Assembly: GCF_028330985.1 (NCBI RefSeq)
Contig: NZ_JAQMUE010000079.1
Span: forward strand, 1 to 64,000
Origin: Roseofilum reptotaenium CS-1145
GTDB lineage: Bacteria; Cyanobacteriota; Cyanobacteriia; Cyanobacteriales; Desertifilaceae
Direction: 5' to 3'
Length of the DNA: 64,000 nucleotides
The notes under the pieces are model-generated. The model was not told the DNA's origin. It saw nothing but the letters and a program-made list of their open reading frames with translations, and ran no database searches. The position numbers and the translations under genes are program-made. This document shows positions 18,169 through 36,019 of this stretch, piece by piece (the first letter of the stretch is position 1; each line of letters begins with the position of its first letter).

Positions 18169-19002
18169 ATGAGTTATTCCAGTCAAACGGAAATTGTAAT
18201 AGAAGCCGGAAGGACAGAGCGGGAATATTGGAAAGACCTGTGGCGCTACCGCGAGTTATTCTACTTTTTGGCATGGCGAGATATCCTGGTTCGGTACAAG
18301 CAAACGGCGATCGGTATTTCGTGGGCATTAATTCGCCCTTTTTTAACTATGGTTGTGTTTACCATAGTCTTTGGTAAACTAGCCGGATTACCTTCAGATG
18401 GAGCGCCTTACCCCATCCTTGTATTTGCAGCCATGCTCCCCTGGCAATTCTTTGCAAGCGCCCTAGCTGAATGCAGCAATAGCCTTATTGGAAATGCCAA
18501 CTTGATCTCCAAAATTTATTTCCCTCGCCTCATTGTTCCCACTAGCGCAGTCATTGTTAGCTTTGTGGATTTCTTAGTTTCTGGAATAATTTTACTAGGA
18601 CTAATGGCCTGGTACAGTTTTGTTCCTTCCTGGAAAATCCTACTCTTACCATTTTTTATATTAATTGCCTTCGCTGCTGCTATGGGCGCAGGCTTATGGT
18701 TAGCCTCTTTAAACGTTCAGTATAGAGATTTTCGCTATGTAGTTCCCTTTCTTGTCCAATTCGGGTTATACATCTCTCCTGTTGGTTTTAGTAGCAATAT
18801 TGTTCCCGATCAATGGCGTTTGATCTATTCATTAAACCCAATGGTCGGAGTCATCGACGGATTTCGCTGGGCTATTTTAGGCAATGAATCTCAGCTTTAC
18901 TTGCCTGGCTTCGTCTTGTCTGTAATTCTAGTCGGCTACCTTTGTATAGGAGGGATCTGGTATTTCCGCAAAATGGAACGTACTTTTGCTGATGTCATTT
19001 AA
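18169..19002 (+). CDS. ABC-2 type polysaccharide export permease (Wzm-like)
   Basis: A 277-residue inner-membrane protein with six predicted transmembrane helices. It has the ABC-2 permease signature (LVRYKQTAIGISWALIRPFL, FAAMLPWQFFASAL, SKIYFPRLIVP, LNPMVGVIDGFRWA). With its ATPase partner it exports lipid-linked glycans, as Wzm/Wzt or TagGH do. The downstream ATPase gene begins within its stop codon (TAATG), so the two are coupled. It opens the 38-kb polysaccharide locus. Confidence 0.92.
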   Translation: MSYSSQTEIVIEAGRTEREYWKDLWRYRELFYFLAWRDILVRYKQTAIGISWALIRPFLTMVVFTIVFGKLAGLPSDGAPYPILVFAAMLPWQFFASALAECSNSLIGNANLISKIYFPRLIVPTSAVIVSFVDFLVSGIILLGLMAWYSFVPSWKILLLPFFILIAFAAAMGAGLWLASLNVQYRDFRYVVPFLVQFGLYISPVGFSSNIVPDQWRLIYSLNPMVGVIDGFRWAILGNESQLYLPGFVLSVILVGYLCIGGIWYFRKMERTFADVI

Positions 19003-22061: not shown

Positions 22062-23000
22062 ATGAAAAGACAAGTAATTGTTACAGGAGCAGCAGGTTAT
22101 TTGGGTTCTGTCATCTGCGAACATCTGCTAGATGCTGGCTACAAAGTAAGCGCAATTGATAACTTGGCTTATGGAAAAAATTCTCTTTTTCATCTTTGTG
22201 CTAATCCGGACTTTGATTTTGTTCGAGGCGATGCACGAGATGAAGAAGTTATGCAGGGTCTGATTAAAGAAGCAGATGTCATCATCCCCCTAGCTGCCGT
22301 CGTCGGAGCCCCCGCGTGCAAGCGCGATCCCTGGCTAGCCAAATCAACTAATCTGGAAGCCATACAATTAATTAACCGCTTGCGGAGTCCCGAGCAGTTA
22401 GTTGTGTATCCAACTACCAACAGCGGTTATGGAACCCAATCTGGCGAAACGTATTGCACCGAAGAGACTCCTCTGGAACCGATATCTCTGTATGGGCAAA
22501 CGAAAGTGCAAGCGGAACAGGAAGTGCTTGATAGTCCCAATGCAATTACTTTACGCCTTGCTACAGTATTTGGCATGTCTCCCCGAATGCGTTTGGATTT
22601 ACTTGTAAACCACTTTACCTATGCAGCGGTGACCGATGGCTATATTGTCCTTTTTGAAAAAGACTTCAAGCGGAACTATATCCATATCCGAGATGTAGCG
22701 GATTGCATGATTCACTGCATCAACAATTCAGAGAAGATGGTTGGCCGTCCCTACAATGCAGGACTGGATGCAGCTAACCTATCGAAGGAAGAGTTGGCGC
22801 TGAAGGTTAAAGAGTATGTGCCAAACTTTTACCTTCATTTTGCTCCCATTGGTACCGACCCAGACAAGCGTAACTATATTGTGTCCAATCAACGATTGCG
22901 TGAGGCTGGTTTTGAGGCGAAGCGATCGCTTGATGAAGGTATCCAAGAATTGCTCAAAGGCTATCGCATGATGGGCCGAATGCCGTTCAAGAATATTTAA
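22062..23000 (+). CDS. NAD-dependent epimerase/dehydratase (extended SDR)
   Basis: A 312-residue extended SDR. It has the nucleotide-binding GAAGYLGSVICEHL near the N-terminus, a D-N-L segment after beta-2, the active site SLYGQTK (YxxxK), and the C-terminal sugar-nucleotide region KRNYIHIRDVADC. It acts on a nucleotide sugar; epimerisation or 4-keto reduction is likely. It directly precedes hddC, so its substrate is probably GDP-heptose or a derivative. A broken copy lies at 20485-20643. Confidence 0.8.
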   Translation: MKRQVIVTGAAGYLGSVICEHLLDAGYKVSAIDNLAYGKNSLFHLCANPDFDFVRGDARDEEVMQGLIKEADVIIPLAAVVGAPACKRDPWLAKSTNLEAIQLINRLRSPEQLVVYPTTNSGYGTQSGETYCTEETPLEPISLYGQTKVQAEQEVLDSPNAITLRLATVFGMSPRMRLDLLVNHFTYAAVTDGYIVLFEKDFKRNYIHIRDVADCMIHCINNSEKMVGRPYNAGLDAANLSKEELALKVKEYVPNFYLHFAPIGTDPDKRNYIVSNQRLREAGFEAKRSLDEGIQELLKGYRMMGRMPFKNI

Positions 23001-23011
23001 ACTTCTCACTG

Positions 23012-23734
23012 ATGACAGTACCTGAACTTGCAGAAACTCAAGCAGTTATATTGGCTGGAGGCTTAGGAACGCGTTTACGATCTGTCGTTTCAGATCGCCC
23101 CAAAGTCCTGGCTAAAGTTGGAGATCGGCCTTTCATGGTCTACCTATTGGAGCAGTTGAGTGCGGCTGGAGTTCAGAAAGTTATATTATGTACTGGATAC
23201 TTAGGCGATCAGGTACAAACCACCTTTGAAACCAGCTCTCATCAGCTCGATCTGATCTATTCTCAGGAACTCTCCCCATTGGGAACGGGAGGAGCATTGA
23301 GACTGGCCCTGGACTATATCCAATCTGATTCGGTGTTAGTGATGAATGGTGATTCTTTTTGCGAGATTAGTATTGGCGAGTTTTGGCTCTCTCATGCCGA
23401 TCGCCAAACCGATGTCACAATTGCGTTAACTCAGGTCTCAGACACCAGTCGCTACGGTCGCGTTGAAGTTGATAGTGCGGGAAAAATCCTCAATTTTGCC
23501 GAAAAAGGGAATAGCACGAGTGTAGGTTGGATTAATGCTGGTATTTATTTGATCAAGCGAGAATTAATATCAGAGATTCCGAGGGATCAGGTTATTTCTT
23601 TAGAACAGGAAATCTTACCCAACTGGATCGAGCATAAATCAGTCTATAGCTACCCAACTCAGGGGAAGTTTATCGATATTGGAACCCCAACTAGTTATGC
23701 TCTAGCACAGTCATTTTTGGGGGAGGAACCGTAG
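23012..23734 (+). CDS. hddC: D-glycero-alpha-D-manno-heptose-1-phosphate guanylyltransferase
   Basis: A 240-residue nucleotidyltransferase with the signature AVILAGGLGTRLRSVVSDRP and catalytic LVMNGDSFCEI. It transfers GMP from GTP to heptose 1-phosphate, giving GDP-D-glycero-alpha-D-manno-heptose. The sequence alone would only support a sugar-1-P nucleotidyltransferase. The HddC assignment follows from adjacency to gmhB, gmhA and hddA, the complete set for the GDP-heptose route. It ends 2 bp before gmhB. Confidence 0.87.
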   Translation: MTVPELAETQAVILAGGLGTRLRSVVSDRPKVLAKVGDRPFMVYLLEQLSAAGVQKVILCTGYLGDQVQTTFETSSHQLDLIYSQELSPLGTGGALRLALDYIQSDSVLVMNGDSFCEISIGEFWLSHADRQTDVTIALTQVSDTSRYGRVEVDSAGKILNFAEKGNSTSVGWINAGIYLIKRELISEIPRDQVISLEQEILPNWIEHKSVYSYPTQGKFIDIGTPTSYALAQSFLGEEP

Positions 23735-23736
23735 CG

Positions 23737-24318
23737 ATGAAACCAAAACCTTTTGTCTTGCTAGACCGGGATGGAACAATAATCAGGGAGTGTCACTACC
23801 TTTCTGACCCCAATTTAGTAGAATTACTTCCTAGTGCAGCCGAAGGAATGCGGAAAATGCAAGAAATGGGATTGGGGATAGCAGCCATCACTAATCAATC
23901 AGCAATTGGTCGAGGGTACTTCAATCTAAGCCGTTTGGCAGAAATTCATCAACGATTATCTGCACTATTAGCAGCAGAAGGGGTCCACTTAGATGGTATC
24001 TACTTTTGTCCCCACCGGCCGGATGAAACCTGTCAATGTCGCAAACCCAAAACGGGTATGGTAGAACGAGCAGCAGAAGAGCTGAATTTTGATCTTCCAT
24101 CGAGTTATGTTATCGGTGATAAACCTTGCGATATCGAATTAGGAAATAATATAGGCGCTACCACGTTTCTCGTCCGTACTGGTTACGGCTCTAAATTTGC
24201 TAGAGATGGAATGGTTAACTGTAATTATGTGGTGGACAACTTGTTAGAAGCGGCAACAATAATTGAAGAAAAACTTATCCTAGAGAAGAGGAAAATGGTC
24301 GATGCCCCTAGAAGTTGA
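23737..24318 (+). CDS. gmhB: D-glycero-D-manno-heptose 1,7-bisphosphate 7-phosphatase
   Basis: A 193-residue HAD phosphatase. The nucleophile motif FVLLDRDGTIIRE is at residues 6-18, motif II threonine in ITNQSAIGRGYF, and motif IV VIGDKPCDIELG. The zinc-binding loop CPHRPDETCQCRKP is typical of GmhB. It removes the 7-phosphate before guanylylation. GGAGG precedes the ATG. The 3' end overlaps gmhA by 17 nt. Confidence 0.92.
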   Translation: MKPKPFVLLDRDGTIIRECHYLSDPNLVELLPSAAEGMRKMQEMGLGIAAITNQSAIGRGYFNLSRLAEIHQRLSALLAAEGVHLDGIYFCPHRPDETCQCRKPKTGMVERAAEELNFDLPSSYVIGDKPCDIELGNNIGATTFLVRTGYGSKFARDGMVNCNYVVDNLLEAATIIEEKLILEKRKMVDAPRS

Positions 24319-24898
24319 AGAGCAAAAGGAACGAATACGAAACCATCTGCTCGGTAGTATTTGGGTCAAACAACAAGTTGTTGAACAATGCCTGGACTCG
24401 ATTTTAATTGCAGCCGATCTAATCACTCATACCTTTAGACTAGGTGGCAAGTTATTACTATGTGGTAATGGAGGGAGTGCGGCGGATTGCCAACACATGG
24501 CATCAGAACTGGTGAGTCGCTTAACCAAAGCCTTTGAGCGCCCTGGACTGCCAGCGATCGCCTTAACAACCGATACCTCCTACTTAACCGCTTTTACAAA
24601 CGATTGCGGTTATGAAGGCGTGTTTGAGCGGCAAGTTCAAGCATTAGGGAAACCCCAAGATACCCTCATCGGAATTAGTACCAGTGGCAATTCCCCAAAC
24701 ATTATTAGGGCTATTACAAAAGCCAATGAGCGAGAGATCCTAACCATTGCCTTAACCGGTAATAAAGGTGGACAACTTTTAGGAATTGCCCGGCAATCCA
24801 TTGTAGTCCCCAGCACAGATACCCAATATATTCAAGAATCTCATCTGGCGATCGAACATATCCTCTGCGACCTAGTCGAACAGCAATTATTTGGCTAG
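24302..24898 (+). CDS. gmhA: Sedoheptulose 7-phosphate isomerase
   Basis: A 198-residue SIS-fold isomerase. GNGGSAADCQHMASELVSR is the GmhA signature, and the second phosphate-binding SIS loop is GISTSGNSPNIIRA. It converts sedoheptulose 7-phosphate from the pentose phosphate pathway to D-glycero-D-manno-heptose 7-phosphate, the entry step for the heptose genes around it. Coupled to gmhB by a 17-nt overlap. Confidence 0.94.
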   Translation: MPLEVEEQKERIRNHLLGSIWVKQQVVEQCLDSILIAADLITHTFRLGGKLLLCGNGGSAADCQHMASELVSRLTKAFERPGLPAIALTTDTSYLTAFTNDCGYEGVFERQVQALGKPQDTLIGISTSGNSPNIIRAITKANEREILTIALTGNKGGQLLGIARQSIVVPSTDTQYIQESHLAIEHILCDLVEQQLFG

Positions 24899-24938
24899 GT
24901 AGAGAGTAACATATTTATAAACACCAGGAACAATTTTC

Positions 24939-26033
24939 ATGATCATTAGTAGAACTCCCTTTAGAATATCCTTTCTCGGCGGTGGAACCGACTACCCCGG
25001 TTGGTATCGACAGCATGGGGGTGCAGTATTAGCATCAACCATTGATAAATACTGCTATTTGAGCTGTCGTTACCTACCTCCCTTTTTTGAACACCGAAAT
25101 AGGGTTGTATGGTCAAAGATTGAGAGTTGCCAAACACTTGAAGAAATCACCCATCCATCTGTTCGCGAAGTATTGAAATATTTGGATATTACCCGAGGGG
25201 TAGAAATTCACCACGACGGAGATTTACCAGCGCGCAGTGGTATGGGTTCAAGTTCTGCCTTCACTGTAGGATTGCTTAATGCTCTTTATGCTCTCAAGGG
25301 CAATATATCTAGCAAACATCAATTAGTGAAAGAAAGTATTTATATTGAGCAAGAAATTCTCCAAGAAACTGTTGGTTCTCAGGATCAGGTGTCAGCAGCG
25401 TATGGAGGGTTTAACCACATTACCTTTCTACCCAATGGCGAAATCTCTGTCAGACCCATTACAATTTCTCAACAACGTTTTGAGGAGTTCAATTCCTATC
25501 TCATGCTTTTCTACAGTGGTATTAAACGAACAGCTTCTGATGTTGCTAATAGCTATGTGAATGGTATAGACAGTCGCAAAAGACAACTGCGTATTCTCAA
25601 AGATTTAGTCGAAGAAGGTTTGTCTATTATTAACAGTGGTCAAGACTTAGCTAATTTTGGAGAATTACTACATGAAGCTTGGCAAGTAAAACGCAGTTTG
25701 AGTGAGAAAGTTTCTAATTCTCACATTGATGGACTTTACGCACAAGCTCGCGCAGCCGGTGCAATTGGTGGTAAGCTGACCGGTGCAGGCGGTGGTGGTT
25801 TTTTACTCTTGTTTGTTCCGCCTGATAAGCAAAAAGAGGTTCAAGCAAATTTAAACCATCTGATTCATGTCCCATTCAAACTTGAATTTTCTGGAAGCCA
25901 AATTATCTTTTTTGACCGAGAAGTAGATTATTCGGTTGAAGCTACCAATCGCCAGAATGACTCAGTTGCCGTTTTCCAGGAACTAGACACTCTAGAGAAT
26001 GGAGTTAAAACTTTAGAAAGTACATCGGTTTAG
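24939..26033 (+). CDS. hddA: D-glycero-alpha-D-manno-heptose 7-phosphate 1-kinase
   Basis: A 364-residue GHMP kinase. It has the N-terminal MIISRTPFRISFLGGGTDYP, the ATP loop LPARSGMGSSSAFTVGLLNA (about 96-115), and motif 3 IGGKLTGAGGGGFLLLFV. HddA phosphorylates the heptose 7-phosphate at C1 in alpha configuration, giving the 1,7-bisphosphate for GmhB. A GHMP kinase with no HldE-type protein nearby points to the GDP-D-manno-heptose rather than the ADP-L,D-heptose route. AGGAAC precedes the ATG. Confidence 0.93.
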   Translation: MIISRTPFRISFLGGGTDYPGWYRQHGGAVLASTIDKYCYLSCRYLPPFFEHRNRVVWSKIESCQTLEEITHPSVREVLKYLDITRGVEIHHDGDLPARSGMGSSSAFTVGLLNALYALKGNISSKHQLVKESIYIEQEILQETVGSQDQVSAAYGGFNHITFLPNGEISVRPITISQQRFEEFNSYLMLFYSGIKRTASDVANSYVNGIDSRKRQLRILKDLVEEGLSIINSGQDLANFGELLHEAWQVKRSLSEKVSNSHIDGLYAQARAAGAIGGKLTGAGGGGFLLLFVPPDKQKEVQANLNHLIHVPFKLEFSGSQIIFFDREVDYSVEATNRQNDSVAVFQELDTLENGVKTLESTSV

Positions 26034-26090
26034 TCATCGTATTGTTAGTCATTATCTGTCAATTTAGTCTAGCCTACCCAATCAGTACCT

Positions 26091-27086
26091 ATGACCAACC
26101 CTCAAGAGATTAATCGCGTACTCATTACCGGAATTTCTGGTTCTGGAGGCTCTTATCTGGCCGAATATATTGTTAACCATCACCCCCATGTAGAAATTCA
26201 TGGAATGTCCCGATGGCATAGTACAACCACCCAAGATAATTTAGCAGCTATTCGAGATAAAGTAATCGTTCACGAAACCGATCTAACTGACTTTGGCTCG
26301 GTTTTTTCTGCTCTACAAAAAGTCAAGCCGGATGCTGTTTTTCACTTAGCAGCTCATGCTAATGTCAGGGCTTCTTTTACGACTCCTAATGCAGTTTTAA
26401 CGAATAATATTATCGGAACTAGCAATCTTTTTGAAGCGATTCGACTAGCGGAAATAAATCCCATCATTCAACTGTGCAGTACCTCAGAGGTCTACGGTCA
26501 AGTCGATCCTAAATACGTGCCGATTACAGAAGAAACACCGATGCGGCCAGCCAGCCCTTATGCTGTTTCTAAAGTTGCTCAAGATATGCTAGGCTTCACT
26601 TATTTCACTAGCTACAAAATGCCGATTATACGGACTCGGATGTTTACCTATCTCAATCCCCGACGCACAGATTTATTTGCTACAGCATTTGCCAAGCAAG
26701 TGGCATGGATCGAGCGAGGACTACAAAAAGAAATGGTTCATGGCAATCTCGATTCCGTTCGGACGATTATTGATGTTCGTGACGCGATGGGTGCTTATTG
26801 GGTTGCGATTCAGAGATGTAAACCAGGAGAGGTGTATAACATCGGTGGTATTACTAACATGAAAGTAGGGGAATTTCTAGAACGACTCATTGGCTTGAGC
26901 GATGTAAAAATTCCCAGGAGAACTGACCCTAATTTACTGCGACCTGCTGATGTCACCTTGCAAATTCCTTCTGTCGATAAGTTCATTGAGGAAACGGGTT
27001 GGCAACCTCAATACACTTTTGAAGAAAGTTTACAAGACTTACTCAGTTATTGGAGGAAGGAGGCTGATAAAGCAGCACTATCATAA
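26091..27086 (+). CDS. GDP-mannose 4,6-dehydratase-like enzyme, probable GDP-heptose 4,6-dehydratase
   Basis: A 331-residue extended SDR with dehydratase-type motifs: GISGSGGSYLAEYI for NAD(P), CSTSEVYGQV with the Ser-Glu pair, and SPYAVSKVAQD for YxxxK. Related enzymes convert GDP-mannose to GDP-4-keto-6-deoxymannose. DmhA-type enzymes do the same on GDP-D-glycero-D-manno-heptose. Its place right after the complete GDP-heptose set makes the heptose form the likely substrate. It would supply the 4-keto-6-deoxy intermediate for the 3-dehydratase and TPP enzyme downstream. Confidence 0.82.
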   Translation: MTNPQEINRVLITGISGSGGSYLAEYIVNHHPHVEIHGMSRWHSTTTQDNLAAIRDKVIVHETDLTDFGSVFSALQKVKPDAVFHLAAHANVRASFTTPNAVLTNNIIGTSNLFEAIRLAEINPIIQLCSTSEVYGQVDPKYVPITEETPMRPASPYAVSKVAQDMLGFTYFTSYKMPIIRTRMFTYLNPRRTDLFATAFAKQVAWIERGLQKEMVHGNLDSVRTIIDVRDAMGAYWVAIQRCKPGEVYNIGGITNMKVGEFLERLIGLSDVKIPRRTDPNLLRPADVTLQIPSVDKFIEETGWQPQYTFEESLQDLLSYWRKEADKAALS

Positions 27087-27143
27087 AACCGGATAAAAGC
27101 AGAAGATATATCTAGTTTATCGAGCTTAGACGTAGTTAACTAA

Positions 27144-28067
27144 ATGGAGAACAATAAAGCAATGGTAGGGAAAACTGACAATAAAATAGCCAGTGCGATC
27201 GAGGACACTCGGGACAAAATAGATTTGAGTCAACGCAGTCTGTTAAGTGAAGGAGTCCAAAAAATATCCTATCCGCTAAATCGATTTGATTTTCGAGGAG
27301 AAATTACTAGACTCCTAATTCAAAAAGGGTTCATAGACAAGGCAGTTCCTCTAGAAGAGCTAAATACCCATATTCCTTATCAACAGCAGGTTGTAGACCA
27401 AAACCTACTTTGTGAAGTGGGGAAGACTTTCTACGAAACTAGCGTTCTCCTGAGAAACCTCCATTTTGAACTGCAAAAATACTTAGCAGAAGAGGTTTTA
27501 GGCTTTGATTTCATTTGCCAAGAAATTCCCACTGTTCGGTTTCATTTCCCGGTGCCTTTAATTGAGGCTTATCGTTCTTCAGAAGGAGTATATCTTGGCC
27601 ATCACAGCGATACAATGCTGGGTCACCCGTTTGCAGAAATCAACTGCTGGTTTCCATTGACTGAATGCTCGCAAACTAACGCCTTGCAACTCTCTTCGTT
27701 AGAGGATGAAAAGTCCATTCTTGAGAGTTTATGTCAAGACATTGCATATGATGCTGATACTTATCATAAGCAGGGTAGAAATTTATTCTATCAAAAACTC
27801 ATAAAGGAAGATGAGTATCGCCAGTTGGTCATCAATAGCTGCCATCCAGTGGCCATGCAATATGGTGAATTGCTATTGTTCGATCCCCGATGCATTCACG
27901 GCCCGGCAGAAAACCAGGAAGAACGGACAAGAGTCAGTATGGATTTTCGTATCATTCCCCTAGAGAGTTATGAGAAAATGACTAGAGAATATCGAAGCCA
28001 AGGACGGAGCGGTCGTAAATTTGCCCGAGGAGATGTTTTCTTTGAAAAAAGTGCAAAACAGTTATGA
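27144..28067 (+). CDS. 2OG-Fe(II) oxygenase-like protein (phytanoyl-CoA dioxygenase/StrG type)
   Basis: A 307-residue protein. The iron facial triad is visible as H-x-D in GHHSDTMLGHP and the distal histidine in LLFDPRCIHGPAEN, followed by RTRVSMDFRI with the 2-oxoglutarate-binding arginine. It resembles StrG-like proteins found in sugar biosynthesis clusters. It could hydroxylate or oxidise the heptose or a decorating group. The first 45 residues are charged and not conserved-looking, and the ATG seven codons in is an alternative start. The reaction is not known. Confidence 0.7.
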   Translation: MENNKAMVGKTDNKIASAIEDTRDKIDLSQRSLLSEGVQKISYPLNRFDFRGEITRLLIQKGFIDKAVPLEELNTHIPYQQQVVDQNLLCEVGKTFYETSVLLRNLHFELQKYLAEEVLGFDFICQEIPTVRFHFPVPLIEAYRSSEGVYLGHHSDTMLGHPFAEINCWFPLTECSQTNALQLSSLEDEKSILESLCQDIAYDADTYHKQGRNLFYQKLIKEDEYRQLVINSCHPVAMQYGELLLFDPRCIHGPAENQEERTRVSMDFRIIPLESYEKMTREYRSQGRSGRKFARGDVFFEKSAKQL

Positions 28068-28102
28068 TAAATTGCCGAATGAGCTAATGAGAGGAGTCAC
28101 TA

Positions 28103-29044
28103 ATGGATGAAGAATTTTACCGATCGCTATACGAAATCCGCCGAGTAGAAGAAGAAATTGCTCGTATCTACCCTACTGATAAAATTAAGAGTCCTGTTCA
28201 TCTCTCTATTGGTCAAGAAGCCGTGAGCGTCGGTGTTTGTCAAGCCTTGAGACCTGATGATATTGTCTTTGGAACCTATCGCGGTCATGCCCTGTATCTG
28301 GCTAAAGGTGGCGATCTTAAACAAATGATTGCCGAGCTGTATGGTAAAGCTACTGGATGTGCGCGAGGAAAAGGTGGGTCGATGCATCTGATCGAAACCT
28401 CGGTTGGGATGATGGGAACCTCTGCTGTCGTGGGCACTACAATTCCCCAAGCGGTTGGCTATGCCTATGCCTTGAAATACCAGAAGAAAGATTCCATTGT
28501 GGTCAGCTTTTTTGGTGATGGTGCTGTAGAAGAAGGCGTGTTTGCAGAAAGTATCAACTTCGCCGCTCTGAAAAAGTTGCCCATTATCTTTATCTGTGAG
28601 AATAACCTCTACGCTATCCATACCCATCAACAGCAGCGACAACCCATATCAAATATATGCGATCGCGTTCGCAGCTACGGAATCCCGGCAGAACGCATTG
28701 AAGATAACGATGCGATCGCCCTACACAAAAAAGTTAGCCAAACCGTAGAAGCCTTACGCAAGGGTCAGCCTGGGCCGTTCTTCTTCGAGTGCATGACCTA
28801 CCGCTGGAAAGAACATGTTGGGCCCAATGAGGATTTCCACTTAGGGTATAGAACCCAAGCTGAAGCTCAACCTTGGATCGAAAATGACCCTATAAAACGA
28901 CTAGGAGAAAAGCTAGAGGTCCAGCAACGTCAGCAAATTGAAACTGAAGTTGAAGCTCGGATTCAGGAAGCCTTCGCTTTTGCTGAAGACTCTCCCTTCC
29001 CCGACACCAGCGAACTGTACGCTCATGTATTTAAGGAGGGCTAA
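28103..29044 (+). CDS. TPP-dependent E1 component, alpha subunit, in a sugar cluster
   Basis: A 313-residue E1-alpha of the 2-oxoacid dehydrogenase type. The TPP/Mg motif runs from FFGDGAVEEG (about 136-145) to FICENNLYAIHT (about 164-175), and GKGGSMHL and EDNDAIAL are family features. A real pyruvate dehydrogenase needs E2 and E3, and none are here. Precedent: AviB1/AviB2 of avilamycin are E1-alpha/beta homologues that attach a two-carbon unit from pyruvate to a 4-keto sugar. I infer the same chemistry on GDP-4-keto-dideoxyheptose. GAGGAG precedes the ATG, and the stop overlaps the beta subunit gene (TAATG). Confidence 0.85.
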   Translation: MDEEFYRSLYEIRRVEEEIARIYPTDKIKSPVHLSIGQEAVSVGVCQALRPDDIVFGTYRGHALYLAKGGDLKQMIAELYGKATGCARGKGGSMHLIETSVGMMGTSAVVGTTIPQAVGYAYALKYQKKDSIVVSFFGDGAVEEGVFAESINFAALKKLPIIFICENNLYAIHTHQQQRQPISNICDRVRSYGIPAERIEDNDAIALHKKVSQTVEALRKGQPGPFFFECMTYRWKEHVGPNEDFHLGYRTQAEAQPWIENDPIKRLGEKLEVQQRQQIETEVEARIQEAFAFAEDSPFPDTSELYAHVFKEG

Positions 29045-30093
29045 TGATGGAACGTACCCTGAGCTATACAGAAGCCGTGTGCGAAGCAACCGACCAAGAA
29101 ATGGGTCGCGATCCTTCTGTCATTCTCTTTGGGCTTGATGTTGATGATCCCAAAGCCATCTTAGGAACCACCAAAGGTCTAGTAGACAAATATGGACCAG
29201 AGCGAGTGTTTGGTACACCCTTATCTGAAGATGCGATGACCGGCGCAGCCATTGGTATGGCTCTCGCTGGAGTGCGACCCATTCACGTCCATATTCGTAT
29301 GGATTTTTTAATGCTGGCCATGAACCAGTTGGTTAATATCGCTGCTAAGAGCCGGTATATGTATGCTGATCTAGTCTCGGTTCCACTGGTCGTAAGGTCT
29401 CTGATTGGCAAAAGTTGGGGCCAGGGGGCGCAGCATTCGCAAGGATTGTACTCCTACTTCATGCATGTTCCTGGCTTGAAAGTGGTAGCTCCAACCACCC
29501 CTTACGATGCTAAGGGCTGTCTGATTGCAGCCATTCGGGATGACGATCCGGTAATGTTCGTTGAACACCGAATTCTCCACTATCAAAAAGGCCCGGTACC
29601 GGAATCTGCTTATACTGTAGAACCAGGCAAAGCCAGAATTACAGCCCCTGGGGAAGACGTGACCCTAGTTGGCATTTCTTACATGCAAGTGGAGTGTTTG
29701 CGGGCCCAGCGCTATCTTGAAGATATTGGCATCCAAGCAGAAGTAATCGATCCAATTTGGTTAAGTCCTCTGGATATCGATACCATTGTCCAATCTGTCC
29801 GTAAAACCAGACGGTTATGTGTTGTAGATAATGGTTGGACAAGCTGTGGTGCCAGTGCCGAGATTATCGCTCAAGTTACCGAGCGTTTGCAAGGCGAGGG
29901 TGATATTAGAGTAAAGCGGATGGGTTTTGCCCCCGTAACTTGTCCGACTACTCCCAATTTGGAAGCTGAGTTTTATCCTAATGGGCGCAAAATTGCGGCG
30001 ACTGCCTTTGATTTGGTTAAAGGTGATGCCACCGGTTGGTTCCCAGAAGAGCGAGATGACCTCAAAGATATTGAATTTAAAGGGCCTTTCTAA
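29044..30093 (+). CDS. TPP-dependent E1 component, beta subunit
   Basis: A 349-residue transketolase-like beta subunit. It has RTLSYTEAVCEATDQEM, the cofactor-activating glutamate region in PLSEDAMTGAAIGMALAG, and the C-terminal domain with LCVVDNGWTSCGASAEI. It pairs with the alpha subunit just upstream to form the alpha2beta2 TPP enzyme. AAGGAGG lies before the two adjacent ATGs (29044 or 29047). Nothing in the sequence shows an E2-binding partner in the cluster, which supports a stand-alone acyl-transfer role. Confidence 0.85.
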   Translation: MMERTLSYTEAVCEATDQEMGRDPSVILFGLDVDDPKAILGTTKGLVDKYGPERVFGTPLSEDAMTGAAIGMALAGVRPIHVHIRMDFLMLAMNQLVNIAAKSRYMYADLVSVPLVVRSLIGKSWGQGAQHSQGLYSYFMHVPGLKVVAPTTPYDAKGCLIAAIRDDDPVMFVEHRILHYQKGPVPESAYTVEPGKARITAPGEDVTLVGISYMQVECLRAQRYLEDIGIQAEVIDPIWLSPLDIDTIVQSVRKTRRLCVVDNGWTSCGASAEIIAQVTERLQGEGDIRVKRMGFAPVTCPTTPNLEAEFYPNGRKIAATAFDLVKGDATGWFPEERDDLKDIEFKGPF

Positions 30094-30101
30094 AGAGAAT
30101 A

Positions 30102-31298
30102 ATGGTAGAAACAACGATGACTGAGAAAAAACTTAATTGGCCCTTGATGAAAAATAATATTACCAGGGCAGACTTAGATGCAGCGATCGCCTTTCTCCAG
30201 CAGGACGATCCGATTTTGACCCAATCTAAACAGGTTAAGGCCTTCGAGCAAGAATGGTCGGATTGGTTGGGAGTTAAGTATAGCGTCTTCGTTAACTCTG
30301 GCTCCTCAGCCAATCAAATTACCATAGCAGCTCTGAGAGAAACCCAGGGACTAGGAGAAGTCATCGTCCCGACTTTGACTTGGGTGTCTGATATTGCCTC
30401 AACGATCCAAGCAGGATTTAAGCCTGTATTTGTCGATATCAACCCACGAACCTTGGGGATGGACTGCGAGCAAGTACTGCAAAAAATCACGCCCCAAACG
30501 AAAGCTGTATTTATGACTCATGTTCTTGGATACAACGGGTTAAGCCAAAAATTGCTTGATGAGTTAGCAGCGCGGAATATTCCCTTGATTGAAGATGTTT
30601 GCGAATCCTATGGAGCAACATTCAACGGACAGAAATTAGGCAGTTTTGGCTGGGTCTCTAATTTTTCCTTCTATTACGCTCACCATATGAGTACCATCGA
30701 AGGAGGGATGGTTTCCACCAACGACCCTGACCTCTATCAGAAGTTACGCATGTTTCGCTCCCATGGAATGGTACGAGAAGCAACCTCAGAGTCCCTTAAG
30801 CAAGAGTATTATCAGAATTACCCCGATCTAAATCCAGACTTTATTTTTGCCTTTCCTGCCTATAATGTCCGGAGTACAGAGTTGAATGCAGTGATTGGGC
30901 GATCGCAATTGAAGCGACTCGATGATAATAATAAGATTCGTACTGAAAATTTGCATTTATTCTTGGATAATCTGGACTCGAATAAATATCAAACTGACTT
31001 TGATACGGAAGGCAGTTGTAATTATGCCTTTACCCTGATTTTGAAAGACCCTGACCCAGAATTATCGGCAAGAGTACAACAAACCATGCGTCAGTTGGGT
31101 GTGGAATTTCGCCGAGGAACCGCAGGGGGTGGGAACCAAACGCGCCAACCTTATTTAAGAGGTTTCTTAGGGGAAAAAGAATGGGAAAAGTATCCTAAGG
31201 TAGACCACGTGCATTTTTATGGCTTCTATATTGGTAACTACCCCGATCTGGAGAAACAGAAGATCAGTGAACTCTGTGCAATTCTGAATCAAGTGTAG
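30102..31298 (+). CDS. ColD/RfbH-type PLP-dependent nucleotide-sugar 3-dehydratase
   Basis: A 398-residue DegT/DnrJ/EryC1-fold protein. It has VNSGSSANQIT for the cofactor phosphate, LIEDVCESYGATFNG with the ring-binding Asp, and AYNVRSTELNAVIGRSQLKR. The site that holds the PLP lysine in aminotransferases reads FYYAHHMSTIEGG, with histidine at residue 194. Lys-to-His is the hallmark of ColD and RfbH, which remove the C3 hydroxyl of 4-keto-6-deoxy sugars rather than transaminate. The GDP-linked ColD is the better parallel because of the GDP-heptose genes. It would give GDP-4-keto-3,6-dideoxyheptose. Confidence 0.85.
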   Translation: MVETTMTEKKLNWPLMKNNITRADLDAAIAFLQQDDPILTQSKQVKAFEQEWSDWLGVKYSVFVNSGSSANQITIAALRETQGLGEVIVPTLTWVSDIASTIQAGFKPVFVDINPRTLGMDCEQVLQKITPQTKAVFMTHVLGYNGLSQKLLDELAARNIPLIEDVCESYGATFNGQKLGSFGWVSNFSFYYAHHMSTIEGGMVSTNDPDLYQKLRMFRSHGMVREATSESLKQEYYQNYPDLNPDFIFAFPAYNVRSTELNAVIGRSQLKRLDDNNKIRTENLHLFLDNLDSNKYQTDFDTEGSCNYAFTLILKDPDPELSARVQQTMRQLGVEFRRGTAGGGNQTRQPYLRGFLGEKEWEKYPKVDHVHFYGFYIGNYPDLEKQKISELCAILNQV

Positions 31299-31330
31299 TA
31301 TAACCAAGTAAATGGGAGAGGAGGAGTTTG

Positions 31331-32338
31331 ATGAATCAATCGACTGACTTTTACAAGAATAAGAAAGTGGTCATTACCGGCGCTAGCGGATTACTAGGAC
31401 GGCATTTAATTCCGGACTTACTAGAGGCTGGAGCTTCAGTGAGAGCAGTTATTCACAAACGTCCTTTTCCCATAGATGATCCCAGAGTAGAAGTAGTTAA
31501 AGCAGATCTGACGCAGCAGGAAGATTGCGATCTTGTCATGGAAGGTATGGATATTGCTTGTTTGTCTGCTTCTGTAACTGTAGGAGCAGCTCAAGCCATT
31601 AAAAATCCAATACTGGCGGTTACATCTAATTTAATTGTCGGCGCGTGTTCTCTACAAGCAGCATGTTTGGCTGGAATAAAACGGGTTCTTTTGGTCAGCA
31701 GCACAACAACCTATCCTGCTTACTCTAGACCCGTTAAAGAAGCAGAAGTTTTTCTCGAACAACCCCATCCGGCATATCAAGGGGTGGGAAATATGAAACG
31801 TTATTTAGAAACTTTAGCTAAATTTTACCACGACCAATATGGCATGGACATTGCTATAGTGCGCCCTGTGCCCTTCTATGGTCCCTATGATAATTTTGAT
31901 TTTGAAACCTGTCACGTCATTCCCTCCCTTATTCGTAAAGCGGTAGAAAAACAAGACCCCTTTGAAGTGTGGGGAACGGGTAAAGATATTCGCGATTTTC
32001 TGCATGTGAAAGATGTAGCAAGGGGCTGCTTGTTAGCCTTGGAAAAGTATCCTGATTATAGTGGAATAAATCTAGGATCAGGCCGCAGTGTATCTATTGC
32101 GGAACTGGCAGAGAAAATCCTCAAACTATCTGGTCATGATATATCTCTGACTCTTGCCCCTTCTAAACCTTCCACTATCCCCGTGCGACTAGTTGATGTT
32201 AGTAAAGCGAAAGAAAAACTTGGATTTGTCTCTGAAATTGACTTAGAATCAGGACTTTCGGATACCATTAGTTGGTTTACTGAAAATCGTCAGCATATTC
32301 TGGACACAATTGATAGATCTAAAAATAAAGTAAAATAG
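31331..32338 (+). CDS. SDR-family protein, atypical active site (first of two paralogues)
   Basis: A 335-residue extended SDR. It has VVITGASGLLGRHLIPDLLE for the cofactor, LLVSSTTTYPAYS with the Ser/Thr position, and KDIRDFLHVKDVARG at the C-terminal substrate domain. Where YxxxK is expected the sequence is AYQGVGNMKRYLE: the lysine is present, but the position four before it is Val, with the nearest Tyr seven before. It shares AIVRPVPFYGPYDNFDFE with the related protein at 34462. It probably acts on the GDP-dideoxyheptose series, but an ordinary reductase or epimerase mechanism is doubtful. The ATG after AGGAGGAG is chosen. Confidence 0.7.
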   Translation: MNQSTDFYKNKKVVITGASGLLGRHLIPDLLEAGASVRAVIHKRPFPIDDPRVEVVKADLTQQEDCDLVMEGMDIACLSASVTVGAAQAIKNPILAVTSNLIVGACSLQAACLAGIKRVLLVSSTTTYPAYSRPVKEAEVFLEQPHPAYQGVGNMKRYLETLAKFYHDQYGMDIAIVRPVPFYGPYDNFDFETCHVIPSLIRKAVEKQDPFEVWGTGKDIRDFLHVKDVARGCLLALEKYPDYSGINLGSGRSVSIAELAEKILKLSGHDISLTLAPSKPSTIPVRLVDVSKAKEKLGFVSEIDLESGLSDTISWFTENRQHILDTIDRSKNKVK

Positions 32339-32378
32339 TAGGTTTTAAGTAATAAATTTTAAGGAGGATATAAAAGTC

Positions 32379-34373
32379 ATGAATAACATCAAAGTTGGGT
32401 TAGTTCAGATTAACAATAGCTTTTCGGGGCAAAATTACTTACCTTACGCTGTTGGGATATTACAAGCTTATGCTCAGAAATACGCTCAAAAACCAGAACG
32501 ATATGAGTTTATGCTACCTGTTTACTCAAGAGTTCCGGTCAGAGAAGCGGTAGAAAATCTCCAAGACGCATCAATTGTTGCCTTTAGTACTTATGTCTGG
32601 AATATAAAGATTTCTCTGGAAATTGCTAGACGAATTAAGCAGGATTATCCAGAAACCCTGATTGTGTTTGGTGGTCCCCAAGTTCCCGATCGCTGTGAAG
32701 CCTTTCTCAGACAAAATCCATTCATTGATGTGGCTTGTCATGGAGAAGGAGAGGTTGTATTTCTAGAACTTCTGGAAAGTTATCCAGAATGCAACTGGGG
32801 GGAGATTCCTTCAATTAGTTTTATCGATAAAACAGGGGAGTTCATCCATCATCCCAAAGGATCGAGAATTCAAGATATCTCGATCGTTCCTTCCCCATTT
32901 CTGGAAGGGGTATTCGAGCCAATCATGAAAGCCAATCCCCAAGAGCGCTGGATTGCGTTATGGGAAACTAATCGAGGCTGTCCGTTCTCTTGCACCTACT
33001 GTGATTGGGGATCGTCAACTCAGAGTAAAGTGTTCCGCTTCGATATGGAAAGGTTGTTCAGAGAGGTAGACTGGTTTGCTGAAAATAAGATTGAGTATAT
33101 CTTCTGCTGCGATGCGAATTATGGCATTTTGCCCAGAGATTTAGAACTGACTCAATATGTAGCAGAAACCAAAGCTAAGTATGGCTATCCCCATGCCCTG
33201 TCGGTTCAGAATACCAAAAATGCGACTGAACGGTCTTACAAAGTGCAGAAACTGCTCTCAGATTCGGGGTTGAATAAAGGGGTGGCGCTCGCCATGCAGT
33301 CCATGGATAAAGGGGCATTGAAAAATATTAAACGCCATAATATTTCCCTGGATTCGTTCCAAGAGCTGCAACGGCGTTTCACCCAGGATAGAGTAGAAAC
33401 CTATTCCGATCTAATCCTAGCTCTTCCAGGAGAAACCTATGAGACCTTCTTTGATGGCATTTCTGAGGCGATCGCCAATGGGCAACATAATCGGATTCAA
33501 TTTAATAATCTCTCTATCTTACCCAATGCGGAAATGGGCGATCCGGAATATCAGAAAAAATATGGGATGGTAACGGTAGAATCTAATATCGTTAACATGC
33601 ATGGTTCCTTAATAGAATCCGATGATGATATCTGTGAGACTCAACAACTGGTGATTGCGACTAATACCATGGCGAAAGAGGAATGGTGCAAAACGCGATC
33701 GCTCTGCTGGATGGTAGCATTGCTTTACTTCGACAAAATACTGCAAATTCCCCTATTGTTGTTGCATGAAATCTGCTCCTTCAGTTTCCGGGAATTATTT
33801 GAAGTATTCACCGAACGTTCTTTGGAAGAATTCCCGATTTTTGAAGAAATTAACGCTTTCTTTAGGAAAACCGCACAAGATATTCAGAATGGAGGCGAAG
33901 AATATTGTCAATCTAAGGAATGGTTAAATGTGTGGTGGCCGGCTGATGAATACATTTTTATCAAACTGAGTGTGGAAAAGAAATGGGATGAGTTTTATAA
34001 AGAAGCAAAGCTACTGCTAACGCGGTTTATGGAAGAGAAATTTATTAACATGCCTTTGATTTTACACGAGAGTATCCGATTGAATCGAAGTCTAATCAAT
34101 CAACCCTTCCAGACCGAAGATATAGAATTGGAGTTATGGCACAACATTTGGGAAGTGTATCAAGCGGCTCGCCGAGGGGTCAAAATCCCCTTGGAACAAC
34201 AAACTCGGACTTATCATATCGAACGGGTGGCCGGTACAAAGCAATCTTGGGAAGATTGGTATCGAGAAGTGGTTTGGTGGGGAAATAAAAAAGGAGCTTA
34301 CCTGTACAAAAATGTAACAGCGACAGTCCAAGAATCATCCCCAGAGAGAACTGATTTACCCAATGCTAGTTGA
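32379..34373 (+). CDS. B12-binding-type radical SAM protein
   Basis: A 664-residue protein. Residues about 1-160 form a Rossmann-like domain of the cobalamin-binding type (LIVFGGPQVPDR, CHGEGEVVFLELL). The radical SAM core follows, with the cluster motif RGCPFSCTYCDWG (cysteines at about 201, 205, 208) and a barrel running to about 430. The last 230 residues are helical and unassigned. Class B members are mostly methyltransferases acting on unactivated carbon; others cyclise or rearrange. Located amid sugar-nucleotide enzymes, it may C-methylate the deoxyheptose. AAGGAGG precedes the ATG. Cobalamin binding is inferred from the domain layout; I do not see the DxHxG motif. Confidence 0.82.
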   Translation: MNNIKVGLVQINNSFSGQNYLPYAVGILQAYAQKYAQKPERYEFMLPVYSRVPVREAVENLQDASIVAFSTYVWNIKISLEIARRIKQDYPETLIVFGGPQVPDRCEAFLRQNPFIDVACHGEGEVVFLELLESYPECNWGEIPSISFIDKTGEFIHHPKGSRIQDISIVPSPFLEGVFEPIMKANPQERWIALWETNRGCPFSCTYCDWGSSTQSKVFRFDMERLFREVDWFAENKIEYIFCCDANYGILPRDLELTQYVAETKAKYGYPHALSVQNTKNATERSYKVQKLLSDSGLNKGVALAMQSMDKGALKNIKRHNISLDSFQELQRRFTQDRVETYSDLILALPGETYETFFDGISEAIANGQHNRIQFNNLSILPNAEMGDPEYQKKYGMVTVESNIVNMHGSLIESDDDICETQQLVIATNTMAKEEWCKTRSLCWMVALLYFDKILQIPLLLLHEICSFSFRELFEVFTERSLEEFPIFEEINAFFRKTAQDIQNGGEEYCQSKEWLNVWWPADEYIFIKLSVEKKWDEFYKEAKLLLTRFMEEKFINMPLILHESIRLNRSLINQPFQTEDIELELWHNIWEVYQAARRGVKIPLEQQTRTYHIERVAGTKQSWEDWYREVVWWGNKKGAYLYKNVTATVQESSPERTDLPNAS

Positions 34374-34461
34374 ATGAAGTTAAAAATCTAGGCTGAATTG
34401 TTTCTCGAATTCGACACGATCCAGCCATTGACTTAAAAGTTTAGGAGAGACAGAGTAACAC

Positions 34462-35430
34462 ATGTTTGCAGGAAAGAATATTCTAGTGGCTGGCGGCACA
34501 GGAATGATAGGTATTCCCCTAGTAGAAATGCTAATTGAGCGTGGAGCTAAAGTCAGAATTGCCTCTTTAGACGATCCATCCAGAGCGCATCCAGAAGCCG
34601 AGTTTATGCAACTCAACCTCATGCCATTTGAGAATTGTTTAAAAGTTTGCCAGGGAATGGATTATGTCTTTAACCTTTTGGGAGTAAAAGGATCGCCAGC
34701 AGTAACGAGAACTAAGCCAGCAAGCTTTTTCGTTCCCACCATCACCATGGACACGAATATGATGGAAGCGGCACGACAATGTGAGGTGGAGCGATTTCTA
34801 TTTACTAGCTCTGTTGGTGTCTATTCTCCCGCAGAGGTACTCTATGAAGATGATGTTTGGCAAACCTTTCCATCACCGAACGATCGCTTCGCAGGATGGG
34901 CCAAACGGATGGGAGAACTGCAAGCTGAAGCTTACAAAATCCAGTACGGTTGGGATAAAATTGCGATCGTTCGACCGACTAATATTTACGGCTCTTACGA
35001 TAACTTTGACCTAGAGAATGCCATGGTCGTTCCTTCTCTGATCAAGCGAGCAATCGATGGCGAAAATCCCATGGTAGTCTGGGGAGATGGTTCAACAGAA
35101 AGGGATTTTATGCACGCTAGAGATGTGGCTCGGGGAATGCTCTTAGCGATGGAAAATGCGAATTGCCAACCAATTAACCTAGGTAGCGGTGTAGGAGTTT
35201 CAATTAAGCAATTAGTTGAGATTATTCTTAGTTATCTTGACAAAAAACCAGAAATTATTTGGGATACATCTAAGCCGAAAGGCGATCGTAAACGAGTTTT
35301 AGATATGGCTCGCGCTAAATCTCTTGGTTTTGAACAAACTATCTCTATAGAGGAAGGAGTCAAAGAAGTTATGGAGTGGTACAAACAAAACAGAGATTTT
35401 TCTGGTCAACGGTATGATGTATTTAAGTGA
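34462..35430 (+). CDS. SDR-family protein, atypical active site (second paralogue)
   Basis: A 322-residue extended SDR. It has ILVAGGTGMIGIPLVEMLIE, FLFTSSVGVYSPAE, and the active-site stretch NDRFAGWAKRMGELQAE. As in its relative at 31331, the residue four before the lysine is not Tyr (it is Ala, with Phe one further). AIVRPTNIYGSYDNFDLE and ERDFMHARDVARG match the paralogue. The two flank the radical SAM gene and probably act on consecutive or alternative nucleotide-sugar intermediates. AGGAGAG lies upstream of the ATG. Confidence 0.7.
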   Translation: MFAGKNILVAGGTGMIGIPLVEMLIERGAKVRIASLDDPSRAHPEAEFMQLNLMPFENCLKVCQGMDYVFNLLGVKGSPAVTRTKPASFFVPTITMDTNMMEAARQCEVERFLFTSSVGVYSPAEVLYEDDVWQTFPSPNDRFAGWAKRMGELQAEAYKIQYGWDKIAIVRPTNIYGSYDNFDLENAMVVPSLIKRAIDGENPMVVWGDGSTERDFMHARDVARGMLLAMENANCQPINLGSGVGVSIKQLVEIILSYLDKKPEIIWDTSKPKGDRKRVLDMARAKSLGFEQTISIEEGVKEVMEWYKQNRDFSGQRYDVFK

Positions 35431-35437
35431 GAAATCG

Positions 35438-36019
35438 ATGGATCGAACCGAACCTCTATTAGAATGGGAGACGCTTCACAGTAAAGAAGCATTTGTCGCT
35501 CACCCTTGGATTAGACTTTCCGTACAGCAGGTTAAGCTCCCCAATGGGAAAGTTGTTGACGACTACCACCAGATCCAACTGGGAGACCACGTAGCAATTG
35601 TTGCCCATACTGATGAAGGCAAAATCCTGATGGAACGGCAATATAAACATGGGGTAGGTAAAGTTAGTCTAATCTTACCAGGGGGATTGATCGAAGGAGA
35701 TGAACAGCCTCTAGAAGCAGCTAAACGAGAACTGTTAGAAGAAACAGGCTATACAACTGAGCGGTGGGAAAGTCTAGGGAATTTCGTGGCTAATGCTAAC
35801 TATGGTTGTGGTAAGATACACCTGTTTGTTGCTCGCAATATCAGGCAAGTGGCCGAACCGGATTCTGGAGATCTGGAAGAGATGCAACTAGTGTTGATGT
35901 CACCTGATGAGTTAGTGGCAGCAATTCACCAAGGGGAGCTTATGGTTATGGGAGCGGTGATGGCGATCGCGTTAGCAACCAATTTATCTATTTATCCTCA
36001 TTTAATAACTGCCCAATAA
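35438..36019 (+). CDS. Nudix hydrolase (nucleotide-sugar/ADP-ribose pyrophosphatase type)
   Basis: The complete Nudix box is present: G in LPGGLIEGDE, then the REL-L-EE-TGY helix, fitting GX5EX7REUXEEXGU. Flanking parts resemble ADP-ribose pyrophosphatases (HVAIVAHTDEGKILMERQY). At about 193 aa it is full length. It lies directly after the sugar-modifying SDR gene and may hydrolyse a nucleotide sugar or clear a misformed intermediate. The start is uncertain: ATGs at 35414 and 35417 overlap the previous gene, while the one used follows its stop by 8 nt. Confidence 0.85.
   Translation: MDRTEPLLEWETLHSKEAFVAHPWIRLSVQQVKLPNGKVVDDYHQIQLGDHVAIVAHTDEGKILMERQYKHGVGKVSLILPGGLIEGDEQPLEAAKRELLEETGYTTERWESLGNFVANANYGCGKIHLFVARNIRQVAEPDSGDLEEMQLVLMSPDELVAAIHQGELMVMGAVMAIALATNLSIYPHLITAQ

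Follow-up and report, generated by a model that had tools for sequence, protein, structure and literature searches.

The sequence analysed was a 64,000-nucleotide stretch of the Roseofilum reptotaenium CS-1145 genome (contig NZ_JAQMUE010000079.1; this whole stretch is called the window), and the subject of this study was a gene block lying at positions 22062 to 36019. We describe here its gene content and catalytic motifs, its co-conservation in other genomes, and the repeated replacement of its thiamine pyrophosphate (TPP)-dependent enzyme. The block probably encodes a route to a GDP-linked 3-deoxy heptose that carries a two-carbon branch at C4 and is destined for a surface glycan; we give this reading, which was built from comparisons of genes and proteins, a probability of about 0.66. 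The genes of the block were as follows.

22062-23000, +, short-chain dehydrogenase/reductase (SDR) resembling GDP-heptose C4-dehydrogenase; 6vo6, 369 bits over the full length; 5' of the span first annotated
23012-23734, +, HddC-like heptose-1-phosphate guanylyltransferase; NCBIfam HddC, 173 bits
23737-24318, +, GmhB-like heptose bisphosphate phosphatase; NCBIfam PRK08942, 168 bits
24302-24898, +, GmhA-like sedoheptulose-7-phosphate isomerase; NCBIfam PRK13936, 213 bits, and TIGR00441, 190 bits
24939-26033, +, HddA-like heptose-7-phosphate kinase; HddA as the top NCBIfam family, 136 bits
26091-27086, +, SDR resembling GDP-heptose 4,6-dehydratase; best PDB match 7us5, 190.0 bits
27144-28067, +, accessory gene resembling 2-oxoglutarate (2OG)-Fe(II) oxygenases; TIGR04324, 63 bits (cut-off 150), and Pfam PhyH, 20.3 bits (cut-off 22)
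28103-29044, +, TPP enzyme E1 alpha, proposed sugar-branching subunit; Pfam E1_dh, 223 bits, GDG...NN motif
29044-30093, +, TPP enzyme E1 beta; Pfam Transket_pyr and Transketolase_C, PLSE and QHS motifs
30102-31298, +, predicted ColD-type sugar 3-dehydratase dependent on pyridoxamine phosphate (PMP); ColD (2gms), 180.7 bits, with His replacing the lysine that binds pyridoxal phosphate (PLP)
31328-32338, +, SDR, candidate ketoreductase or epimerase; best PDB match GDP-fucose synthetase, 117 bits
32379-34373, +, B12-binding radical S-adenosylmethionine (SAM) enzyme, candidate C-methyltransferase; NCBIfam KedN5, 292 bits (cut-off 700), CX3CX2C motif
34462-35430, +, second SDR, candidate ketoreductase or epimerase; Pfam Epimerase, 156 bits, 36% identity to the SDR at 31328
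35414-36019, +, NUDIX hydrolase, role in the set uncertain; Pfam NUDIX, 58 bits

A first-pass annotation of the window had listed hddC, gmhB, gmhA, hddA, the 4,6-dehydratase-like SDR gene, the E1 pair and the ColD-like gene, and all of them were recovered as intact open reading frames on the forward strand between 23012 and 31298. By NCBIfam and Pfam, the 4,6-dehydratase-like SDR came out as GDP-mannose-dehydratase-like and the ColD-like protein as DegT/ColD-like. The span that it had drawn, 23012 to 36019, was correctly placed, with a 5' boundary that was too narrow, because it left out the C4-dehydrogenase-like gene (22062-23000), a member of the set. This gene, the 2OG-oxygenase-like gene between the 4,6-dehydratase-like SDR gene and E1 alpha, and the B12 radical-SAM gene were additions to that account. 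Genes for an ABC-2 membrane protein and an ABC ATPase were found upstream of the block (18169-20315), and genes for GT4 and GT2 glycosyltransferases, methyltransferases and an asparagine-synthase-like protein extended downstream to 55006. Such a neighbourhood suggests the setting of an exported surface glycan.

The protein encoded at 22062-23000 was compared with the PDB using phmmer. Its sole close solved relative was 6vo6, which it matched end to end, and the next match scored 86.5 bits. We take 6vo6 to be Cj1427, the GDP-heptose C4-dehydrogenase; given that identity, a similarity far above that to other SDRs marks the window protein as being of the Cj1427 type. With such a gene present, a 4-keto GDP-heptose could therefore form without 6-deoxygenation.

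Conservation around the ColD-like gene

The ColD-like protein was used to scan genome contigs, and the best 80 of 270 related stretches, 61 to 95% identical, were retained as loci. The presence of a gene was scored over the whole fetched locus with thresholds that we chose (for example, 40% identity for hddA, 28% for hddC, 40% for the C4-dehydrogenase type and 55% for the 4,6-dehydratase). Loci in which the ColD gene has 5 kb of sequence on either flank, 35 in number, are referred to as full-flank loci. When aligned with 2gms, the ColD-like protein had a histidine at the site occupied by His in 2gms and by Asn in 3b8x. It thus has the aminotransferase fold with His replacing the PLP-binding Lys, and an HH motif was present in 81 of 81 subfamily sequences (the 80 loci and the window). 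The predicted reaction is C3 deoxygenation of a GDP-4-keto sugar.

A TPP-enzyme gene was found within 7 kb of the ColD gene in 71 of the 80 loci and in 33 of the 35 full-flank loci, and within 4 kb in 48 of the 51 loci with 2.5 kb on both sides. Beyond 4 kb from ColD, 563 kb of sequence gave TPP matches in 3 loci. The TPP genes were mostly the direct 5' neighbours of ColD; in L050 and L056, the ColD gene sat between E1 alpha and E1 beta. Five loci without a TPP match (L012, L025, L043, L064 and L069) have sequences that end no more than 250 bases 5' of ColD. As for the other genes, hddA was present in 32 of the full-flank loci, a B12 radical-SAM gene in 28, hddC in 27, gmhA in 10 and gmhB in 9. 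The first-pass annotation had put forward the joint occurrence of HddA, ColD-like and E1 alpha/beta genes across genomes as a check; hddA and a TPP enzyme, of the E1 or another type, accompanied ColD in most full-flank loci. Because the same set recurs across many phyla, it goes beyond what chance would assemble.

As a control, 20 cyanobacterial hddA neighbourhoods without this ColD were examined (drawn from 25 genomes, other than that of the window, that had a match). Two had a TPP match. One was a lone transketolase-C match at 27%, and the other was a split transketolase whose neighbour was another heptose cluster, one that includes a C4-dehydrogenase-type gene at 50%. The control L135 was scored as having no TPP enzyme in its 11.6 kb; further along the contig, about 13-15 kb from this hddA, E1 and split transketolase genes were present (L164). 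TPP genes can therefore also accompany heptose sets outside this ColD subfamily.

The nearest neighbour of the window, L004, was 95-100% identical from the C4-dehydrogenase gene through ColD, and no oxygenase or radical-SAM homologue was found within its 21 kb. A different B12-binding radical SAM protein of about 510 amino acids travels with the pathway in 57 of the 80 loci (e.g., L060:4659-6185); one example and the radical-SAM protein of the window shared only about 22% identity over 313 residues.

The E1 alpha protein was also used as a query, which gave 6 plasmid records and at least 7 places outside the window in 386 cyanobacterial genomes. Among the 13 regions seeded in this way (L154-L166), a heptose-type gene was found nearby in 8 (gmhA, hddC or the C4-dehydrogenase type, some at 25-36% identity). 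Three Azospirillum plasmids carried a C4-dehydrogenase-type SDR gene (55-56%), E1 alpha/beta genes and a His-type dehydratase gene with 33-34% identity to that of the window. The same set has therefore been assembled around another dehydratase.

The proposed pathway and the 6-deoxy question

In the proposed pathway, the 4-ketone would be formed by the C4-dehydrogenase-like SDR and/or, with loss of the 6-hydroxyl, by the 4,6-dehydratase-like SDR. The ColD-type enzyme would strip the 3-hydroxyl through a PMP adduct at C4, and the E1 alpha/beta pair would decarboxylate pyruvate on TPP and attach the acetyl unit at the C4 ketone; the sugar formed would have nine carbons and a tertiary alcohol. The remaining SDRs may reduce or epimerise the product, the B12 radical-SAM enzyme perhaps C-methylates it, and the downstream glycosyltransferases and the ABC exporter would use the branched sugar. 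Every reaction of this pathway is predicted; certainty is lowest for pyruvate as the donor, for the branch position at C4 and for the 6-deoxy state. The proposal of a two-carbon graft onto a deoxygenated GDP-keto-heptose has more behind it than the first-pass annotation could know; the exact product of the window is a prediction. If true, GDP-heptose deoxygenation and thiamine diphosphate (ThDP)-dependent sugar branching would be joined, leading to a class of branched surface sugars with higher carbon numbers, which our searches did not find described, and each step would gain a testable enzyme, some from culturable strains. There would also be a natural series of non-orthologous TPP enzymes that apparently carry out carboligation at a ketone in a single kind of acceptor, which would be useful for biocatalysis.

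According to the first-pass annotation, no heptose of this type is known to have been described. Unbranched 3,6-dideoxyheptoses are in fact already described (PMC10440746); for the branched combination, the statement stood, as no description of a C2-branched GDP-heptose was found in literature searches covering titles and the starts of abstracts, with subscription papers mostly outside them. No paper turned up in a literature search for 'sporadic carbohydrate cluster' as a name. The GDP-3,6-dideoxyheptose pathway of Campylobacter jejuni HS:5/HS:11 is similar in its origin from GDP-heptose, its C4,6-dehydratase and its PLP-type C3-dehydratase, whereas, as described, it includes neither a TPP enzyme nor a branch (PMC10440746). 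The C3-dehydratases of that pathway share 62-67% identity with two enzymes already characterised, one of them from Escherichia coli O55:H7 (PMC10440746), whereas the dehydratase of the window is a distant ColD relative (180.7 bits). With its conserved TPP pair, the window does not conform to the C. jejuni type, which consists of a heptose set, a 4,6-dehydratase and a C3-dehydratase with no branching enzyme. In vitro, Cj1427 together with a C3-dehydratase gave GDP-3-deoxy-4-keto-heptose (PMC10680097).

Branching of keto sugars is carried out by ThDP enzymes of the decarboxylase and E1-type superfamilies, and by transketolases by proposal alone, according to a 2025 review (PMC12247030), which also states that ketone-accepting E1-type or transketolase enzymes have no structure to date. 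AviB1/AviB2, Pau11/Pau12 and KbDH alpha/beta are E1 alpha/beta-type pairs that transfer a C2 unit from pyruvate onto a keto sugar (PMC12247030, PMC4753412). Their products are branched sugars of antibiotics, whereas the neighbours of the window pair suggest a GDP-heptose, and the likeness is drawn from the descriptions of those systems. YerE, of yersiniose synthesis, likewise acts on a 3,6-dideoxy-4-keto sugar, to which it adds activated acetaldehyde from pyruvate (PMC12247030); it differs in being a single decarboxylase-type flavoprotein working on a CDP-hexose (PMC4753412).

Several observations weigh against the branched-heptose reading. Of the 80 loci, 77 were labelled as metagenome-assembled genomes (MAGs). 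No TPP enzyme was seen in L008, L017, L055 and L068 despite at least 2 kb of sequence 5' of ColD. A homologue of the window-type radical-SAM protein was present in 3 of the 80 loci and one of the oxygenase in 0, which makes both atypical of the family. Five of the 13 E1-seeded regions (one of them only 4.4 kb long) had no heptose-type gene. Two Streptomyces plasmids carried E1 relatives with no heptose genes in the region (one has polyketide-type genes, and the record of the other is unannotated), and in Azospirillum oryzae, E1 lay beside HldE/GmhA-like genes and two Lys-type aminotransferase genes, which speaks against specificity. The PDB title of 6vo6 is that of a putative sugar-nucleotide epimerase/dehydratase without mention of Cj1427, and the entry is not named in the papers examined. 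The full GDP-heptose set claimed by the first-pass annotation was there as four adjacent genes, all of which scored under the equivalog cut-offs: 173 versus 300 bits for the HddC-like protein (which scored higher, 180 bits, with a mannose-1-phosphate guanylyltransferase model), 168 versus 178 for the GmhB-like protein (PRK08942), 213 versus 276 (PRK13936) and 190 versus 209 (TIGR00441) for the GmhA-like protein, and 136 versus 600 for the HddA-like protein. The names of these four proteins therefore rest on relative scores and on their togetherness. Lastly, the genomes of 31 of the 80 loci, 5 of them with a cluster 4,6-dehydratase, were searched for GDP-mannose 4,6-dehydratase (GMD); almost all were MAGs and possibly incomplete, and among the 26 from loci without the cluster enzyme, 9 had no GMD match above 100 bits.

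6-Deoxygenation is therefore not general in the family, and GMD was rejected as one of its core steps. The nine genomes included that of L075, Azonexus hydrophilus ZS02, which is not labelled as a MAG. A true GMD above the cut-off was found somewhere in 17 of the 31 genomes, and GMD-like genes under the cut-off lay just beyond the fetched loci L005 and L007. The window-type 4,6-dehydratase itself was present in 9 of the 80 loci (3 of the 35 full-flank loci), and a C4-dehydrogenase-like homologue of at least 40% identity was present in 28 of the 35. Because of these proportions, the general product of the family is more likely to be a branched heptose that lacks the 3-hydroxyl, to which the window would add 6-deoxygenation. 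The 3,6-dideoxy branched heptose first proposed was thus supported in part: the comparative evidence favoured joint action of the E1 pair and the ColD-type enzyme on an intermediate derived from GDP-heptose, whereas the 6-deoxy part is plausible rather than core. In two of the genomes (those of loci L013 and L006), the GMD genes (L167, + strand, and L168, - strand) contained in-frame inserts of 351 and 357 amino acids, respectively, each starting with Cys and ending with HN before Ser; by their appearance, these are candidate inteins.

The protein encoded at 26091-27086 scored almost equally with 7us5, a GDP-heptose 4,6-dehydratase (190.0 bits), and with the reductase 2pk3 (188.7 bits). It has in common with 7us5 the motifs RW, PRRxD and SVRT..D.RD, which are absent in GMD; the GPGQ of the reductases is missing, and S/T-x-E and Y..K are retained. 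A tree placed it with 7us5 and RMD and separated it from the true GMDs (a 100/100 split, with a long-branch warning). Homologues with 42-44% identity adjoined hddA in L134 and lay within 4 kb of it in L135.

The window may thus add 6-deoxygenation or make two sugars. Carried further, the latter would mean at least two separate sugars, a 6-deoxy- or 3,6-dideoxyheptose made by the 4,6-dehydratase route and another one, with the E1 pair acting on one of them, possibly a hexose. The presence of both C4-dehydrogenase-like and 4,6-dehydratase-like genes in the window fits this idea, as does the resemblance of the HddC-like protein to mannose-1-phosphate guanylyltransferase, and C. jejuni HS:3 and HS:4 carry both types of enzyme and reportedly have two heptoses in the capsule (PMC10680097). 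We nevertheless consider it unlikely, since hddA, the TPP enzyme and ColD occur together in many phyla, mostly without a window-type 4,6-dehydratase, and since the cluster 4,6-dehydratase has motifs in common with the GDP-heptose enzyme and not with GMD.

Exchange of the TPP enzyme

A single branched heptose remains the preferred product, and the TPP enzymes that would make its branch fell into four classes. Class A comprised E1 alpha/beta, fused into a protein of about 680 amino acids in several loci, and was found in 26 loci and in L056, which has class B matches too. Class B was a split transketolase (20 loci), class C a pair made of a 200-amino-acid E1 alpha-like protein and a 178-amino-acid PYR-domain protein (mini-E1; 23 loci), and class D a protein of 610 amino acids resembling acetohydroxyacid synthase (AHAS), in L021. 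The class changed at least 19 times on the ColD tree (72 classified rows; mean of 34.4 after shuffling), which was a quick tree with 28 open branches of 78. The starred branches alone, with unclassified rows omitted, required a minimum of 4 changes for class A, 5 for class B and 6 for class C. TPP binding by class C is less certain because G-x-M...EDN replaces the GDG...NN or DxN motif of the other classes. Class B resembles the split transketolases of miharamycin and amipurimycin synthesis, for which transfer of a hydroxyacetyl unit to a keto sugar is proposed and unproven (PMC12247030); these belong to Streptomyces natural products, and the accessible text of that review mentions no heptose genes with them.

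The TPP enzymes could instead build the carbon skeleton before nucleotide activation, providing GmhA with, for example, sedoheptulose 7-phosphate or a ketose related to it, a role that the split transketolases filling the slot in 20 loci would suit. This is very improbable, since E1 pairs and AHAS-like enzymes would yield 1-deoxy ketoses, which by established chemistry GmhA cannot convert to an aldose, and since the genes mostly adjoin ColD on its 5' side. The supply of sedoheptulose phosphate in particular was rejected because E1-type and AHAS-type enzymes occupy the same slot.

The carriers of the TPP genes belonged to 15 named phyla and candidate division KSB1 (by record title and NCBI rank; MAG titles are fallible). 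In the cyanobacterial scans with ColD, hddA and E1, some candidates per genome were scored, and the prevalences are lower bounds. At an E value of 1e-100, a scan of 386 cyanobacterial genomes found the ColD-like protein in at least 1, that of the window itself, and a scan of 19 relatives, again including that genome, found it in 2. This sporadic distribution is as expected for a mobile surface-glycan module. A search of plasmids with the ColD-like protein gave nothing at an E value of 1e-60. The chances seem evenly divided on a broader proposal, that of a widespread, horizontally moving family of GDP-linked, C4-branched 3-deoxy nine-carbon heptoses in about 15 phyla, in which a swappable branch would be acetyl (E1 or AHAS), hydroxyacetyl (split transketolase) or a C2 unit of some kind (mini-E1), often with modification by a B12 radical-SAM enzyme. 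If true, it would amount to a hidden class of bacterial surface sugars.

The E1 pair and pyruvate dehydrogenase

The Roseofilum genome contains one other E1 alpha (contig 64) and a single E2 (contig 83), both off the contig of the window, and no E2 relative was found in the 80 loci by tblastn with the genome's own E2 as the query. The first-pass description of the E1 pair as standing alone was therefore upheld. The window E1 alpha was 37% identical to the other E1 alpha of the genome and had the loop YRWKEHVGP, versus YRFRGHSLADP in the latter. Among the 15 genomes searched, cluster E1 alphas were 64-98% identical to that of the window and other E1 alphas 43% or less; the one exception, at 45% (G031), is the cluster copy of L056. 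An E1 alpha tree was built from 42 rows, 26 cluster sequences and 16 labelled as paralogues, taking in the window and 25 of the 27 class A loci (L037 and L049 were left out as too short or without E1 alpha). The cluster rows formed one starred group, and the sequence inside it labelled as a paralogue, L098, is actually the cluster copy of L056. The cluster loop was EHVGP-like, with the variants QHVGP (L056) and EHVGS (L014) and one exception, GHGGA (L066). The EHVG loop was found in none of the 15 other paralogues; GHSLADP occurred in the genome's own paralogue and its four cyanobacterial counterparts, and the loops of the remaining paralogues vary.

The pair thus had neither the loop and clade of the paralogue nor a nearby E2, as a pyruvate dehydrogenase-complex E1 would, and instead resembled the two-subunit ThDP branching systems as a TPP-binding E1 pair without E2 in a sugar operon. 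The view of it as an ordinary pyruvate dehydrogenase E1 feeding acetyl-CoA metabolism, for which the E1 fold, the TPP motifs and the best PDB matches (pyruvate dehydrogenase E1 subunits) would speak, is less probable still than early skeleton building and was rejected, given the separate E1 alpha and E2 elsewhere, the lack of a local E2, the distinct clade, the altered loop and the transketolase-type or AHAS-like enzymes that relatives hold at the same place. These comparisons support action of the E1 pair with the ColD-type enzyme on a GDP-heptose-derived intermediate.

Some of the E1-seeded regions had further features. In Azospirillum ramasamyi and Azospirillum lipoferum, one protein matched both HddC and GmhB and is a probable guanylyltransferase-phosphatase fusion (L154:8986-10284 and L158:5805-7076). 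The Streptomyces griseofuscus plasmid pSGRIFU1 (L155:13917-15963) carried, within a polyketide-type cluster, an E1 pair belonging to the EHVGP-loop family; the annotation of the region shows no E2. On the Azospirillum oryzae plasmid (L156:3726-16081), a gene for an HldE-like kinase/nucleotidyltransferase with reversed domain order was found together with the two aminotransferase genes and with GmhA-like, E1 alpha/beta, radical SAM and NUDIX genes, perhaps an amino-sugar cousin of the pathway on another heptose nucleotide. L160 and L161, from 2.1-2.3 Mb genomes of the window's class, had a fused E1, gmhA-like and SDR genes without a ColD-like gene, and a second TPP enzyme, a split transketolase or an AHAS-like protein, was encoded near the fused E1.

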